Part shown: positions 2,608-46,558 of the stretch, piece after piece
Numbering within the stretch: position 1 is the first letter of the stretch
How the letters are laid out: each line of letters starts with the position of its first letter
Source: a virus
DNA length: 47,233 bases
IMG/VR virus record: IMGVR_UViG_3300036846_000382
Location: 1 to 47,233 of that record
Reading direction: 5' to 3' (one strand)
Program-made: the position numbers and the translations under genes
Notes under the pieces: model-generated
The model's input: the letters and a program-made list of their open reading frames with translations, nothing else
The model's database searches: none
What the model was told of the DNA's origin: nothing

Positions 2608-3096
2608 TCACGAACTGCTGGACGCGGGCGGTGCTACGTAGACCGGCCCGATTCCGGGGTAGTTGACGATGATATACGGCGGCGGCTGTATCGGCTGCAC
2701 CGGCCAGCCGCCTTGTCCCTGTGGCGGCGGTACAGGAGTCGTCGGATCGCCGGGGTGCGGCGGTTCCGGCGGTCGAATATCCGGTGGCACGTTGGGCGGA
2801 TAGATCGGCCCGCCGCCAACAACCGGCGGGATCGGGTGCTCGGGATGACCGGGCCACCACGGAGGCTGCTGACCTCCGCCGCCGCCGGGCGGGTTGGGCC
2901 ACACGGTCGGCGGGATCGGATGCTCGGGGTGCCCTGGATACCACGGCGGTTGACCACCACCTTGACCCGGCGGCATTGGGCCGCCGCCGACCTGGAGTCC
3001 AGTGACCGTGGCTTCTCCGATCAAGACCACGTTCTGCTGTGTACGGCTGTATTTGTCGTAAAGTACACCACTGATAGTAATTTCGACTGCGGCCAT
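2608..3096 (-). CDS. Proline/glycine-rich protein (162 aa)
   Basis: 162 aa from ATG at 3096 with a strong AGGAGG that overlaps the upstream gene's TAA. Residues 1-35 look like a folded beta domain. From about 37 the chain is Pro/Gly rich with two copies of a repeat containing PGHPEHPIPP (about 53-62 and 81-90), then further Pro-rich sequence ending in VYVAPPASSSS. Similar Pro-rich proteins are frequent in phages of rhizobia and relatives, where no function is known. Likely extended and extracellular or virion associated, but this cannot be decided from sequence. Confidence 0.75.
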   Translation of the reverse strand: MAAVEITISGVLYDKYSRTQQNVVLIGEATVTGLQVGGGPMPPGQGGGQPPWYPGHPEHPIPPTVWPNPPGGGGGQQPPWWPGHPEHPIPPVVGGGPIYPPNVPPDIRPPEPPHPGDPTTPVPPPQGQGGWPVQPIQPPPYIIVNYPGIGPVYVAPPASSSS

Positions 3097-14791: not shown

Positions 14792-15415
14792 ATGTCACGC
14801 AACATTCTTAAGTACCTTGCCGCCGCCGGATTGGTGGTTAGTCTCGGGACAACGGCAGCGCATGCCGATATGCAGTCATACAGCAAGACCGGAGATTGGG
14901 ACTCGATGGCTGGGATCAATAACGCCGGTCATCAGCAATGCGCCACCGGGCGCGTCGGTACCCTGCAACTGGATAACACCGTCGGAGCAGTTATGCTCAA
15001 ATATGACGCATCTGCTCCGAATGCAGTTTTATTACATGTCACCAAGAAAACTTGGGATATCCCGGAAGGGACACAAATGCAGGTCAAACTGCAAATTGAT
15101 AATGTCTCCCGTCTCTATAATGCACACGGCGAAGGTGACACGATTGAAATAATCCTTGGTGCCAACGAAAAAGATCCAACAACTGGCGAGCCGGCAATTG
15201 TTTTGTTGGCCAATTTAATGAAGTCCGGAAAACAACTTTACGTCTCATTCTTGAGCGGGAACGAGACTAAATGGATCACCCCTCTTACGGGAGCGAACGT
15301 CGAAATTTCTAATTTCTTCAAATGTGTGCAGTACGTCACCAACGGGAAGCCTGCTCCACAAGCATCGCAACCCTACGGCACCGTGCGTAAAAAGAGTGCC
15401 ACGCAACCATTCTGA
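14792..15415 (+). CDS. Exported protein with signal peptide (207 aa)
   Basis: 207 aa. N-terminus MSRNILKYL then a hydrophobic stretch (AAAGLVVSLGTTAA) and A-H-A-D, a typical Sec signal peptide cleaved near residue 25. The mature protein looks beta-rich with two Cys (about 50 and 177) that could form a disulphide, and a Pro/Ser-rich end. Preceded by GGAAAG. Base composition is less GC-rich than neighbours, suggesting a separately acquired cargo gene. In the middle of an otherwise cytoplasmic early unit, it may alter the lysogen's periplasm or surface. No family recognised. Confidence 0.7.
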   Translation: MSRNILKYLAAAGLVVSLGTTAAHADMQSYSKTGDWDSMAGINNAGHQQCATGRVGTLQLDNTVGAVMLKYDASAPNAVLLHVTKKTWDIPEGTQMQVKLQIDNVSRLYNAHGEGDTIEIILGANEKDPTTGEPAIVLLANLMKSGKQLYVSFLSGNETKWITPLTGANVEISNFFKCVQYVTNGKPAPQASQPYGTVRKKSATQPF

Positions 15416-15431: not shown

Positions 15432-15683
15432 ATGACCGCCGTTGAGTTCCGTGCTGCCCTCGCGGACCTCGATCTGACCCAGCGCTCGCTCAGCGAGCGT
15501 CTGGGGGTCGAGAAGGGAACCGTCAACCGCTGGGCCAACGGCCATGTGCCCGTCCCGCAATACGTCATCGCCTATCTCGATCTGCTCGCCGATTACCGCG
15601 ATCAAGAGAAACGCATAAATTCCCCCCGAAAAAGGAAAACCCGAAATGACCGCCGCCGACCCCGTCCGTCTTCACTTTGTTAA
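15432..15683 (+). CDS. XRE-family HTH regulator (83 aa)
   Basis: Start chosen at ATG 15432 with GGAATG-type site; 83 aa. HTH at about 14-40 (LTQRSLSERLGVEKGTVNRW) with the usual ANGHVPVPQYVIAYLDLLAD third and fourth helices, matching the XRE/Cro fold. The basic C-terminal tail overlaps the integrase start by 38 nt. Next to int it could be an excisionase-like or lysogeny regulator; it is also a candidate for binding the operators at 6189-6333. Confidence 0.8.
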   Translation: MTAVEFRAALADLDLTQRSLSERLGVEKGTVNRWANGHVPVPQYVIAYLDLLADYRDQEKRINSPRKRKTRNDRRRPRPSSLC

Positions 15684-16776
15684 AAGCTACGACGACCGAC
15701 ACGGCAAACCGCGCAACTATTTCCGTCGTCCCGGCTTCCCGAAGATCACCCTGCCGCGTGACCGCGGATCGGTCGAGTTCGCGATAGCCTACGGTGCCGC
15801 GCTCGCCGGAAATATGCCGATCCAGCCAGCCCCGGTAAGCTCGCGTCACGCGAAGGCCCGCCGCGGTACGACCGCGGAGGCGATCCACCAATATCTCGGA
15901 TCGTCCGGGTTCTCGCGGGACCGCGCCGCCTCGACGCTGAACCGCGAGCGGCATTTTCTCAACGAGTTCGCCAAGGCGTTCGGTGCGCTGCCGCTCGAAC
16001 GGCATACGACGAAATCCCTCGGCGAGTGCCTTGCCGGTAAGAAGGCAAATACGGTCCGCGGACAGGTCGCTTGCCTGCGCGGATTTTTCGGCTGGGCGGC
16101 GATGGCGCTGCCGGTCGGCGCGGGTTTATTAAAGACCGATCCCGCGGCCGGACTAACGAAGCCGAAGCAGGAGGTCAGCGAGGACGGACTCCCCTGCTGG
16201 GAGCCGGAGGAGATCGCGCAATATCGCGCGTACTGGCCCTATGGCACGATCCAACGGCTCGCCTTCGAGTTGTACCTTTGCACCGGCGGACGTGGCGTTG
16301 ATGTGGTTGAACTCGGCTGGCACTCGTTACGCGAGGGCGGGGCAAAGCTGTGGTATCGGCCGCTCAAGACCAAGATGCACAAGATCGAGTGCCTGATTCG
16401 AATCCCTCCCGCGCTACGCGAAGCGCTCGATCTTTTGCCGCGGACCTTACCGACTACCGCGATACCGCAGCCGGCTTTTATCGGGCTGACGAAGAGCGGA
16501 ACGCGGTACTCCCGGCAGAACCTCGCGGACAATATGAAGCTATGGGTTGCCGAAGCGGGCATTAAACGCAAGGAGGGCCGCCAGCTTACGCCGCACGGTC
16601 TGCGCAAGGCACTCGTCTGCTACTTCCTAGCGAAAGGGATTGCTCCGCAGTACATCGCCGGCTGGACCGGCCAATCAGTCGCGACGGTTCTCAACTACGG
16701 CCGGAACTACGGCCGGGCTGACGCCGCCGAGCGCGCCTATGAGGGCTCATTCGGCGAGATGGAGTTAGCCGCATGA
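15646..16776 (+). CDS. int: Tyrosine integrase
   Basis: 376 aa from ATG 15646 with an AAGGAA site. N-terminal arm-binding/SAM-like region (about 70-160), catalytic domain from about 185. Active-site residues: R216 (TGGRGVDVVEL), K241/K243 (KTKMHK), H317-x2-R320 (TPHGLRKA), W340 in place of the second His (GWTG), and Tyr351 or Tyr355 (NYGRNYGRAD). These are complete for a functional enzyme that integrates and excises the phage. An attachment site was not recognised near it; there is no intergenic room directly downstream. Confidence 0.93.
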   Translation: MTAADPVRLHFVKSYDDRHGKPRNYFRRPGFPKITLPRDRGSVEFAIAYGAALAGNMPIQPAPVSSRHAKARRGTTAEAIHQYLGSSGFSRDRAASTLNRERHFLNEFAKAFGALPLERHTTKSLGECLAGKKANTVRGQVACLRGFFGWAAMALPVGAGLLKTDPAAGLTKPKQEVSEDGLPCWEPEEIAQYRAYWPYGTIQRLAFELYLCTGGRGVDVVELGWHSLREGGAKLWYRPLKTKMHKIECLIRIPPALREALDLLPRTLPTTAIPQPAFIGLTKSGTRYSRQNLADNMKLWVAEAGIKRKEGRQLTPHGLRKALVCYFLAKGIAPQYIAGWTGQSVATVLNYGRNYGRADAAERAYEGSFGEMELAA

Positions 16777-42612: not shown

Positions 42613-44406
42613 TTAGGCAATCATCGCCGAGATATCGATCACGGTGCGCTTCGCGGTCGCGACGCCGACGGCCATCGCGAGCGCGACGAGAGCGTCGATC
42701 CGGTTCGTGGCGTGGCGTTTACTGAACCAGCGATTATCGAACGGGTCGCTTTCGACCGCGGCGGACATGCAAGCGGACATAATGAGCGGACTGCGCCGGA
42801 TACGAATGCGGCGCTCTAGGATCAGGCTTTCCAGTTCGCGGACCGAGCCGGGCATCCAAAGCTGGCTTTCTGCCGCGCGGCGCTTTCCGGCCTGGGGATG
42901 CTCGACGAGCGGGACGGTGACTCCGAGTTCGTCGAGCGCGTTCTCGAAATTCTTGCGGAACGCATAGGCGTCGTATGCGACGGCCTGCGCGTCGTAGTCG
43001 TTCTGCGCTTCGCCGATCCGCGCGGCGACGAAATCCATCCGGACGAGCTTGCCGGGGGTCGCGTGAAGATGCCCCTGCCGTGCCCATAATTCATACGGCG
43101 CCTGATCCTGCAGCGCGCGCTGTGCGAGCGTATCTTTCGGGGTCCACGCTTCGACCCAGGCATCGAACGTCGGCTGCGTCGAGATGCCGTCCTCGCGCGC
43201 GACCTCGACGGAGCCGGTCGGGACGACAAACGCGAGCGCGGTCAGATCGCGCGTCGCGGAAAGGTCCGCGCCCATGTAGAGCGGCTCGCCCGCGTGATCT
43301 TCGGGATTAAAGTCGGCCGTGACGGCGTCGAGCGCTTGCCGGCTCATCCACGCGACTTCGGCATCCGTCCAGCAGCAGAAGTGCAATCGGAGAATGCCGT
43401 TTAGCTTTCCGGGAATCGCCTTCGCCTGACGGACGACGCTCTCCAGATAATCCGGCTGAACGGTAACGCCGAGCAGAGGATTGCTTTTGGCCCAGCAGCT
43501 CGGGTCTTCCAGCGGATCGTCCTCGGGATCGAGGCCGCAGACGAAGCTAAACTCCTGATCGTCGATGACCTCACCGACGAAGGTCGCCGCCTCGTCCGGG
43601 GTCCGCGTTCCGGCCGCGATCTGGACCGCGAACTCATGCTCCTGCCAGCAGACCGATTGGCGATCCGAGCCGCTATTCGTGGTCATGACGAGCAGCGGCT
43701 GTCGACGCCACTTGAAGCCCCGTTCGAGCATCTCGATGGTTAGCTGGTCCGGGTGCTCGTGAACCTCGTCGCATAGCGCGCAGCTCGGGCGCGGTCCCGA
43801 ACCGGAGCGGCGGGCCTCGCTGGAAATCGGGCGAAAGAAGCTAGCGGTCCGAAGATCGGCGAGGTTCCAGACCGGGTTGCCGCCGGAGGTCGTCAGCCGC
43901 TTCCGGAGAGCCGGCGACTGCTCGCGCATCGCGACGGCGTCGCGGAAGAGCACCATCGCCTGCGCGGTATTCGCCGCAGCGGCGTAAACCTCGGCCCGAG
44001 GCTCGTCGTCCGCGAGAAGGCAATACATGCCGATCCCGGCCGCGAGCGGTGATTTGCCGGACCCTTTGGCCTGCTCGATATAGGCCCGGCGAAAGCGCCG
44101 CGTCCCGTCCGAGCGGCGCCAGCCGAAGAGCGAGCCGACGATGAATTGCTGCGATGGGTGAAGCTCGAACAGCCCGCCCTCGAATTGCCCGCCGGCGAGA
44201 CGCAGGACGGTCGGGAAAAACCGAATCGCCCGCAGCGCGGCATCGAGGTCCCAATGAAAGCCACGCGCTTTCGCCGTCTCGCGGTCGAGCAGGTGCCGGC
44301 GGCAGGCGTTCCGGATATGCGGGCCGGCGACGATACGGCCGGCAAGGACAGCCTTGGCCCACTGCGTCACGGGATCGACGCGGCGGACCCGAACCGACTT
44401 AGCCAT
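42613..44406 (-). CDS. terL: Large terminase subunit
   Basis: 597 aa. Walker A QAKGSGKSP (112-120), Walker B LCDEVHEH (211-218), coupling motif MTTNSGS (241-247), and nuclease acidic residues D381, D387 and D571 (NRIDAL). Terminase_1-type. It cuts and translocates DNA into the head. No strong ribosome site; its leader contains copy 2 of the 31-bp element, 42 bases upstream. Confidence 0.95.
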   Translation of the reverse strand: MAKSVRVRRVDPVTQWAKAVLAGRIVAGPHIRNACRRHLLDRETAKARGFHWDLDAALRAIRFFPTVLRLAGGQFEGGLFELHPSQQFIVGSLFGWRRSDGTRRFRRAYIEQAKGSGKSPLAAGIGMYCLLADDEPRAEVYAAAANTAQAMVLFRDAVAMREQSPALRKRLTTSGGNPVWNLADLRTASFFRPISSEARRSGSGPRPSCALCDEVHEHPDQLTIEMLERGFKWRRQPLLVMTTNSGSDRQSVCWQEHEFAVQIAAGTRTPDEAATFVGEVIDDQEFSFVCGLDPEDDPLEDPSCWAKSNPLLGVTVQPDYLESVVRQAKAIPGKLNGILRLHFCCWTDAEVAWMSRQALDAVTADFNPEDHAGEPLYMGADLSATRDLTALAFVVPTGSVEVAREDGISTQPTFDAWVEAWTPKDTLAQRALQDQAPYELWARQGHLHATPGKLVRMDFVAARIGEAQNDYDAQAVAYDAYAFRKNFENALDELGVTVPLVEHPQAGKRRAAESQLWMPGSVRELESLILERRIRIRRSPLIMSACMSAAVESDPFDNRWFSKRHATNRIDALVALAMAVGVATAKRTVIDISAMIA

Positions 44407-44447
44407 TTAAGGCGCTAGGGAGCCCCGTAGAGAGGGCATTGTCTTTC

Positions 44448-44478
44448 CCGGTAGTACCCTAGCGGCCGGTCCCGTTCC
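44448..44478 (-). repeat. 31-bp dispersed element, copy 2
   Basis: Read on the - strand: GGAACGGGACCGGCCGCTAG, spacer GGTA, then CTACCGG. Same arms as copy 1 at 19104-19134, 25 of 27 identical, but its 4-nt spacer is the reverse complement of the other (GGTA versus TACC). It is 42 bases upstream of the terL start and touches the stop of the PEP-CTERM gene. Confidence 0.7.
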
Positions 44479-45206
44479 TATGCCGTAGCGCCTGCGGCCG
44501 GCTGCTTGCGACGCCACCTTAGCGCGACAAGCCCGACGAGCCCGGTCCCGAGGATCAGGAGACTCCCCGGTTCCGGGACCTCGGTTTTAATCTCGGTCTG
44601 GCCCCGGTTGACCAAGCTGCCGCCTGCTACCAACGTGCCGGAAGCTTCCTCGGTCATCGAGAATAAACCAGGGTCGTTGATCGCACCCGAATTGTTGTGA
44701 CTAAACGAATCGGCAACTAAGGTAACGGAATGGGAGAAGCTGTCGATGAGAGTCCCGGGGTGGTCGGCCACACCCCCATCCGCGCCTTGCTGGTTGGCCG
44801 GGTCGTCCCAAAACTGCAAAAGGATGTTGGACCCGATCGCCGTCTCGAACGTGCCAGATCCGCTGGTGTTGAAAGCCGTGACAGGCCCGATAAAGTTGGT
44901 CGCGCTTACGGTAAAGGTGATCGAACGGTCGGCCCCGCTATTGTTGATAAGCTGGAGCGAGGACGTGTCGAGGATATTCGTCGCGCCCATCGACGCGATC
45001 TGAATAGAGCCGTTTACCTGGACCCCGTTGATCGACTGGTTGCCTAGCTGCAACGTGCCGACCGCGGGGTTGGTGTCGCACGCGGCGTTATCGACGCAGG
45101 TCGCGGCGGTGCCGCTAATGTCATAGCTAACGATGAGGGTTGCCCCAGCCTCGCTCCCGCCTAGTAAGGCGGCTGCGGCAACTCCGGCTAAAAACCACTT
45201 CAACAT
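44478..45206 (-). CDS. PEP-CTERM sorting-domain exported protein
   Basis: 242 aa. Signal peptide (about 1-22, MLKWFLAGVAAAALLGG, cut near SEAGA), a beta-rich mature domain with two Cys (about 37 and 44) and Asn/Ser/Thr-rich strands, then a C-terminal PEP-CTERM signal: VPEP (210-213), a membrane helix GSLLILGTGLVGLVALRW, and a basic RWRRKQ end. The host exosortase would cut after PEP and attach the protein to the surface. Its AGGAGG site overlaps the small-terminase stop (TAGGAGG), so it is embedded in the packaging operon. No virion function is suggested. Confidence 0.92.
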   Translation of the reverse strand: MLKWFLAGVAAAALLGGSEAGATLIVSYDISGTAATCVDNAACDTNPAVGTLQLGNQSINGVQVNGSIQIASMGATNILDTSSLQLINNSGADRSITFTVSATNFIGPVTAFNTSGSGTFETAIGSNILLQFWDDPANQQGADGGVADHPGTLIDSFSHSVTLVADSFSHNNSGAINDPGLFSMTEEASGTLVAGGSLVNRGQTEIKTEVPEPGSLLILGTGLVGLVALRWRRKQPAAGATA

Positions 45207-45215
45207 ATTTTCCTC

Positions 45216-45698
45216 CTACGCACCGAGAAATTCATCCGTAGGGTCCGCAATCTGCCGGCCCTCGACCTCGATCCGGCTGCGCGCCGAGGGCGTCATACCC
45301 AATTCGGCCGCGAAGTGGACCATATCTTTCTGTGCCTTGTTCCGGGTCCCGACGAGCGGGTTCTGGATCGCGTTCCCATTCGTCGTCCGGATCAGGAGCC
45401 CGGAGGTTAGCTGATCCGCGGCGGCCATCGTTTTTAACGCGCGCTGGCATTGCGCCCAGCAGGAATAGGCTTCGCAGTAAGCGGCCATAGCGGCGCGGTC
45501 TACCATCGTCAGAAGGCCGATCCGATGCTGCTCTACCGCGAGCCGGTTCCACTCGATGAGCGCATCCGCACTCAGCTCCAGCGGCGGGTCCGGCATGAGC
45601 GGTATCGGCTGCGGCTCGCGCCGGTTAAGCGTGCGCTTGCCGGGGTTTCCCATAATCAGCTTTAGATGGGTCGGCTTCGGCTTCGGACCGTCTTTCAT
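45216..45698 (-). CDS. terS: Small terminase subunit (P27 family)
   Basis: Start chosen at ATG 45698 in a 4-nt ATGA overlap with the glycosyltransferase gene; 160 aa. KPKPTHLKLIMGNPGKRTLN at the start, SADALIEWNRLAVEQHRIGL, DRAAMAAYCEAYSCWAQCQ, and LIRTTNGNAIQNPLVGTRN are typical of P27-like terminase small subunits. It recognises the packaging site. The upstream in-frame extension (to 45974) is antisense-like and lies inside the neighbour. Confidence 0.93.
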   Translation of the reverse strand: MKDGPKPKPTHLKLIMGNPGKRTLNRREPQPIPLMPDPPLELSADALIEWNRLAVEQHRIGLLTMVDRAAMAAYCEAYSCWAQCQRALKTMAAADQLTSGLLIRTTNGNAIQNPLVGTRNKAQKDMVHFAAELGMTPSARSRIEVEGRQIADPTDEFLGA

Positions 45699-46558
45699 AC
45701 GACGGCTGCCATTCCGTAATCGTCCGGGCCGACCGGCAGCTCGAATCCGTCGCGCGGGATTAGCTTCGTATGCCGGAACGGCCGGAAATCGACGTAATGG
45801 TGAGCCCGGCCCCAACGCCACGCGAGCCGCGCTACGTCCGGGTGAAGCCGCACGATCATGCGCGATTTCGGGAGCGTCCCTTCCTTCGCGTAAAAGGCGT
45901 CGGTATTGCCGCCCTTCATCATTTGGGTCGGCTCTTTGTGCTGAAGGAACGCATTGAACTGGACCGTACACCACCCGGCTTTAAGAACGCGCAGCGACAG
46001 GTCGAGGTCCTCGTTATACCGGCCGCGCCAGCGAAACGGGAGATCGTTGCGAATCAAGATGCAGGAAAAGAGCCGGGTATTCATCGTAAAGGCGGGCATT
46101 TTCGCGCGCCGTTCGGCGAACATAAAATAATTCGGACCAGCGAGCGCGACGTTCTTATAGCGCAGCGCGAAATCTTCCATGCAGCGGATCAGAGTGCCGT
46201 CCGAGGCCCGGATAAACGTGTTTTTGTGGAGCCGGTAAAATCCTCGGATATTGTCGTCGATGATCCAGTGACGGTCCGCGCCAAGCGAGACGGCATGATC
46301 CCACGCGAAATTCCGCGCCGGTCCCGAGCCGGGGCTCTGGCCCTCGGCTAAATCCATGCAGTGGTCGTAATCCCGCTGATAGCGCTTATCGAGGACGAGC
46401 AGCTTCTGGCGGTCGATGACCGCAGCATAGGCTGCGTGTTCCTGTTCCTCGACGATCATACGGAATGGGACGCCGATACGGTCGAGCACCCGCGCGGTCT
46501 GCCGCTGCTCGTGCCGTCCCTTCGAGGGAATATAGATCGGAAATTCAGGCTGCGGCAT
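45695..46558 (-). CDS. TET-associated-type glycosyltransferase (TAGT/GREB1-like)
   Basis: 287 aa. GT-A-like start IPSKGR (10-15), GSGPARNFAWD (77-87), DRHWIIDDNIRGFYRL (95-110) with the DDN as metal-binding motif, CMEDFALRYKNVALAGPNYF, YNEDLDLSLRVLKAGWC, and a final helical part ending GPDDYGM. These match the TAGT family that sits beside TET/JBP oxygenases in phages and is proposed to glycosylate oxidised cytosine or thymine in DNA. No TET/JBP, thymidylate synthase-like or hydroxymethylating gene is seen here. Couples with the small terminase (ATGA) and the ParB-like gene (14-nt overlap). Confidence 0.8.
   Translation of the reverse strand: MPQPEFPIYIPSKGRHEQRQTARVLDRIGVPFRMIVEEQEHAAYAAVIDRQKLLVLDKRYQRDYDHCMDLAEGQSPGSGPARNFAWDHAVSLGADRHWIIDDNIRGFYRLHKNTFIRASDGTLIRCMEDFALRYKNVALAGPNYFMFAERRAKMPAFTMNTRLFSCILIRNDLPFRWRGRYNEDLDLSLRVLKAGWCTVQFNAFLQHKEPTQMMKGGNTDAFYAKEGTLPKSRMIVRLHPDVARLAWRWGRAHHYVDFRPFRHTKLIPRDGFELPVGPDDYGMAAVV

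Follow-up and report, generated by a model that had tools for sequence, protein, structure and literature searches.

A complete PEP-CTERM protein encoded between the terminase genes of a phage, and related genes at varied positions in other phages

Results

A PEP-CTERM protein within the terminase operon

Analysis of a 47,233-nucleotide stretch of viral DNA (IMG/VR record IMGVR_UViG_3300036846_000382, positions 1 to 47,233; hereafter the window) has revealed that the open reading frame between its small and large terminase genes is that of a complete PEP-CTERM protein, with a predicted signal peptide, a modelled beta sandwich and a C-terminal sorting tail (Table 1). We tentatively favor the view that this gene is a phage moron, the product of which, exported and sorted by the host, would most likely remodel the cell surface or exopolysaccharide (EPS) and might hinder phage adsorption.

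Table 1. Coordinates of the features discussed, in positions of the window
Feature	Position	Strand	Basis or remarks
Large terminase TerL	42613..44406	-	PF03354 + PF20441
71-nt spacer, PEP-CTERM stop to terL ATG	44407..44477	-	no significant terminator by fold or terminator scan
PEP-CTERM protein gene	44478..45206	-	242 aa, ATG start; PF07589 and TIGR02595 matches
PEP-CTERM sorting signal, residues 210-233 (VPEP + TM helix + RWRR)	44508..44579	-	PF07589, AlphaFold2
Exported domain, residues 23-209, predicted all-beta sandwich	44580..45140	-	AlphaFold2, pLDDT about 90
Predicted signal peptide, residues 1-22, AxA end	45141..45206	-	sequence inspection; AxA invariant in homologues
Shine-Dalgarno AGGAGG	45212..45217	-	sequence; overlaps TerS stop codon 45216-45218; 5 nt 5' of PEP-CTERM ATG
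Small terminase TerS	45216..45698	-	PF05119; start at the MKDGPKPKPTH methionine
Tyrosine integrase	15646..16776	+	PF00589, 32.7 bits > 27.1
Pro-rich protein, N-terminal 35 aa + PGHPEHPIPP repeats	2608..3096	-	homologues adjoin PEP-CTERM genes in other phages

The PF07589 profile matched residues 210-233 of the window protein at 29.6 bits (cut-off 20.7; E 6.6e-7) and TIGR02595 scored 23.3 against a cut-off of 16, with PF07589 matching none of 14 control genomes. Residues 1-22 (MLKWFLAGVAAAALLGGSEAGA) are hydrophobic and by inspection end in A-x-A, A20 and A22 of this predicted signal peptide being invariant among 18 aligned homologues; there is no lipobox, residues 19-23 reading EAGAT and lacking Cys. 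From an 18-sequence alignment, AlphaFold2 predicted a beta sandwich at residues 24-209 (pLDDT about 90), harboring two invariant cysteines (37 and 43), followed by a helix at 213-233, and the C-terminal tail reads VPEPGSLLILGTGLVGLVALRWRRK. An earlier note on this DNA had proposed a full PEP-CTERM architecture, a claim borne out by the two profile scores, the AxA signal peptide and the modelled helix. For the rest of the molecule, Foldseek returned remote and generic jelly-roll matches (CBM-type and phage beta-sandwich domains, TM < 0.5), the PDB sequence search gave no meaningful match, PHROGs held no family for the protein and the body scored above cut-off in none of the NCBIfam PEP-CTERM families. 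Against the PepA floc protein model (NF033554, floc_PepA), the score fell below the cut-off (35.9 bits vs. 80) and the match was limited to residues 187-234; there was likewise no homology to any exclusion protein.

Insertion of the gene between terS and terL

The AGGAGG overlapping the small-terminase stop had also been described in the earlier note and was confirmed here, so that translation of the gene is coupled to the terS-terL operon. From this arrangement, the note had reasoned that the gene belonged to the packaging operon proper and had not drifted in, and had proposed a search for homologues at the same terS-terL position; comparison with related phages did not support this reasoning. 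A TerS could be recognised in 59 of 80 TerL relatives, and in 58 of these the two genes overlap or nearly abut, leaving no space for another gene; PF07589 was found in none of 39 TerL-relative records, and homologues of the window gene lie elsewhere in unrelated phages, sometimes antisense. A conserved terS-terL position is thus ruled out, and because terS and terL abut in relatives from which PF07589 is absent, we take the PEP-CTERM gene to be an insertion in the lineage of the window phage. The sole exception is L064, with an 821-nt terS-terL gap containing an HNH-like ORF (540-1361, + strand), an observation indicating that the same junction takes other cargo.

The GC content of the window gene (0.605) and its GC3 (0.753) match those of neighbouring phage genes, so the insertion does not appear to be a recent foreign one. 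Absence from related phages combined with signs of recent insertion had been named beforehand as the finding that would speak against the operon claim; the absence holds for the close TerL relatives tested, but recent foreign origin does not, and the gene is conserved by selection in other phages. The original argument from the operon fails, but the question of function that it brought up gains weight. Scanning for promoters found none on the strand of the gene in the window, and a hairpin 3' of the gene as a terminator was ruled out (fold z -0.63). With neither promoter nor terminator of its own found and GC not atypical, the window copy lacks two of the classical hallmarks of a moron.

The presence of an integrase indicates that the window phage is probably temperate, making a role in lysogeny possible. 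Its TerL is nearest to those of Rhizobium/Sinorhizobium phages (58%), which as a pointer to the host is only suggestive. Two further genes of the window were recorded: just upstream of TerS, a TET-associated glycosyltransferase (45695-46558, - strand; PF20691, 139 bits), suggesting DNA base hypermodification; and adjoining the integrase, a gene for a secreted-looking 207-aa protein (14792-15415, + strand) with a GC of 0.497 vs. 0.62 and no Pfam match, possibly a second moron.

A homologous family under purifying selection

Searches with the body sequence identified homologues on at least 15 further distinct IMG/VR viral contigs, ranging from 71% to about 30% identity. Signal peptide and C-terminal sorting tail are kept in all 15 complete members found in this way, and 10 of 11 such homologues tested exceeded the PF07589 cut-off, L003 falling below it; the PEP motif itself varies, being TEP in L003 and PEA in L086 and L114. 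Pairwise dN/dS within the family is 0.08-0.29, well below 1, showing purifying selection.

The positions of these homologues differ widely. The gene lies 3' of a tail-fibre-like gene in L003, in the tail region beside a tail fibre in L085, in the terL-portal interval in L086 and, antisense, in L114, next to terS and antisense in L088, antisense to terL in L153, and beside an endolysin in L091, L107 and L112, while in L115 it separates the capsid gene from a scaffold-like gene; it is antisense to its neighbours in L084, L088 and L114. Across the wider superfamily, 103 direct neighbours included family matches to endolysin, terminase, helicase, portal, head and HNH proteins, endolysin being the commonest annotated one (6/103 neighbour proteins), and 16 of 50 carrier records had a TerL match (phrog_2). 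Strong hairpins stand 3' of several members, with a canonical terminator 3' of the member in L110; a consensus promoter scan 5' of the gene in L107, L109, L110 and L113 found none. No homologue was detected by tblastn among INPHARED phages with members of PEP-CTERM families A, B and C, nor among PLSDB plasmids with one family A member.

Probable dependence on a host exosortase

No exosortase (PF09721) was found in 15 carrier records. An initial scan of genome contigs gave no relative; those bacterial relatives that do span the entire protein are remote (29-31% identity) and rare among 385 Alphaproteobacteria, which argues against recent capture of the phage gene. Both bacterial genomes with the best relatives encode an exosortase; among 11 bacterial genomes matching the family profile, 9 have one, although many of these matches cover the C-terminal part only. 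With exosortase lacking in the carrier records and present in bacteria bearing relatives, export and sorting of the phage protein would depend on the host.

Other PEP-CTERM genes on viral contigs

Scanning viral contigs for DNA encoding PEPxTWAM yielded at least 120 loci; of the 120 listed, 119 carry a motif-bearing ORF, nearly always with the motif close to the C-terminus. This number is not a count of phage cargo, since some singletons are probably genes of the cell in the flanks of prophages, and the set is silent on motif conservation because the motif itself chose it. Among the matches listed, the PEP-CTERM ORFs of viral contigs fall into several unrelated families: the largest cluster is the superfamily to which the window family belongs (67 sequences, duplicates and already known members among them), and the others comprise families of 17 and 5, 35 singletons and some small groups. 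Phage-borne PEP-CTERM families other than that of the window include B (e.g. L213:4852-5499) and C (e.g. L190:1006-1569). Two loci lie in apparent isolate-genome proviruses and would each offer a cultivable host: L178:4121-4750(-), antisense inside the capsid region, and L203:11097-11639(+), in the interval between tail-fibre-like and lysis genes.

A proline-rich gene near the PEP-CTERM gene in some phages

The window also encodes a Pro-rich protein for which PHROGs has no family. When this protein alone was used as the query, 6 of the 24 viral records found had a PEP-CTERM match over cut-off, one of them, L130, being perhaps cellular. The two genes adjoin in L117, L120, L123 and L141, with PEP-CTERM bodies that look unrelated, and the Pro-rich neighbourhood recurs in L084 (Pro-rich gene at 1223-1762), L086 and L107, which were found via the PEP-CTERM gene. 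We consider it possible that they form a two-gene cassette. In the window itself they are far apart on the linear contig, in which no terminal repeat was found.

Discussion

Lipoproteins, inner-membrane proteins and modifying enzymes make up most of the surface proteins that phages are known to encode. Morons making surface proteins are a familiar kind of phage gene, and what sets the present case apart is the predicted anchoring route via exosortase; the open-access literature searched yielded no report of phage cargo of the PEP-CTERM or exosortase-dependent type. In bacteria, PEP-CTERM proteins have been shown to bind EPS to cells (PMC9850573), and the exoproteome of exosortase mutants loses PEP-CTERM proteins (PMC12188702). 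Like Gram-negative exosortase substrates such as PepA of floc-forming bacteria, the window protein combines a signal peptide, a PEP motif with TM helix and basic tail, and a divergent beta-rich body; unlike them, it is phage-borne, with bacterial relatives at 29-31% identity.

We surmise that the protein would be produced by read-through of the late operon, exported from the cytoplasm by Sec, cleaved after A22 and retained by its C-terminal helix in the inner membrane, from which the host's own exosortase would release it and attach it to the outer surface or EPS, as for cellular substrates (PMC12188702, PMC9850573). Most likely, the beta sandwich would thereby cover or alter the surface or EPS of a cell that is infected or lysogenic; with less confidence, we speculate that other phages or the phage's own progeny may in this way be kept from adsorbing. 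This last step draws on an analogy to Ltp, a superinfection-exclusion lipoprotein of temperate phages (PMC3952083), which is likewise the product of one small phage gene and, as predicted for the window protein, is exported and anchored at the cell surface. Ltp is, however, a lipoprotein of the lysogeny module, whereas the window family bears an exosortase signal and occurs in late modules; no sequence homology is claimed, and superinfection exclusion by the window protein is a perhaps. The earlier note had named decoration of the cell surface, a block to superinfection and a lysogen trait as roles, and each of the three is possible. As a moron, the gene resembles others in separating two genes that adjoin in relatives, in its sporadic presence and in several members having their own hairpin or terminator, and the window copy differs from typical ones in being a read-through cistron with no signals of its own found and with phage-like GC.

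The gene might instead serve lysogenic conversion for the benefit of the host, acting as an EPS-binding or adhesive component that alters the aggregation, biofilm or niche of lysogens and does not itself act against phages. We rate this as unlikely, albeit a serious contender, given that PEP-CTERM proteins are required for floc formation and raise bound EPS (PMC9850573), that the window phage has an integrase, that the fold is remotely like carbohydrate-binding modules and that the copies in several other phages are antisense or have their own hairpin or terminator. Against it, the window gene sits within the late packaging operon, where a prophage is normally silent, with no promoter of its own found on that strand, and some carriers are known from fragments only. 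That same late position, together with endolysin as the commonest annotated neighbour (6/103) and the tail-fibre neighbours in L003 and L085, would suit a role confined to the lytic cycle, in which the protein acts in lysis, e.g. by loosening EPS or keeping debris off progeny virions; with many members antisense to late genes or provided with their own hairpin or terminator, and with helicases and HNH genes among the other neighbours, we find this considerably less probable.

Little probability, slightly below that of a purely lytic role, is left for selfish or neutral cargo taken from hosts and functionless for the phage. Sporadic presence, varied insertion sites and a C-terminal signal like that of cellular PEP-CTERM proteins are what one would expect of such cargo, but purifying selection already disfavors it, the sorting signal is retained in 15/15 members found by body sequence, and bacterial homologues are only remote (29-31%) and few in 385 Alphaproteobacteria. 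An artefact, i.e. host DNA or a chimeric contig, is very improbable for the window gene: some loci of the motif scan, in isolate genomes or the flanks of prophages, do resemble the usual PEP-CTERM proteins of cells, but this gene lies in frame with TerS on one side and TerL on the other, is translationally coupled and has a phage-like GC, and its homologues on other contigs are flanked by terminase, portal, capsid and endolysin genes.

Returning to the moron reading, the occurrence of relatives of the gene at many positions in many unrelated phages suggests that remodelling of the infected cell's surface is routine for such phages. In a broader and more speculative form, which we hold more loosely than the reading of the window gene, phages of exosortase-bearing bacteria could carry PEP-CTERM morons as a large and varied class of interchangeable genes, some of them accompanied by the PGHPEHPIPP gene, with the host exosortase displaying the products on the surface or EPS and so controlling who infects. 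The natural role of the exosortase/PEP-CTERM route is still poorly understood, and phages apparently make use of it. If true, this would provide a direct handle on the roles of PEP-CTERM proteins at the cell surface, and would explain why phages of environmental bacteria retain such genes.
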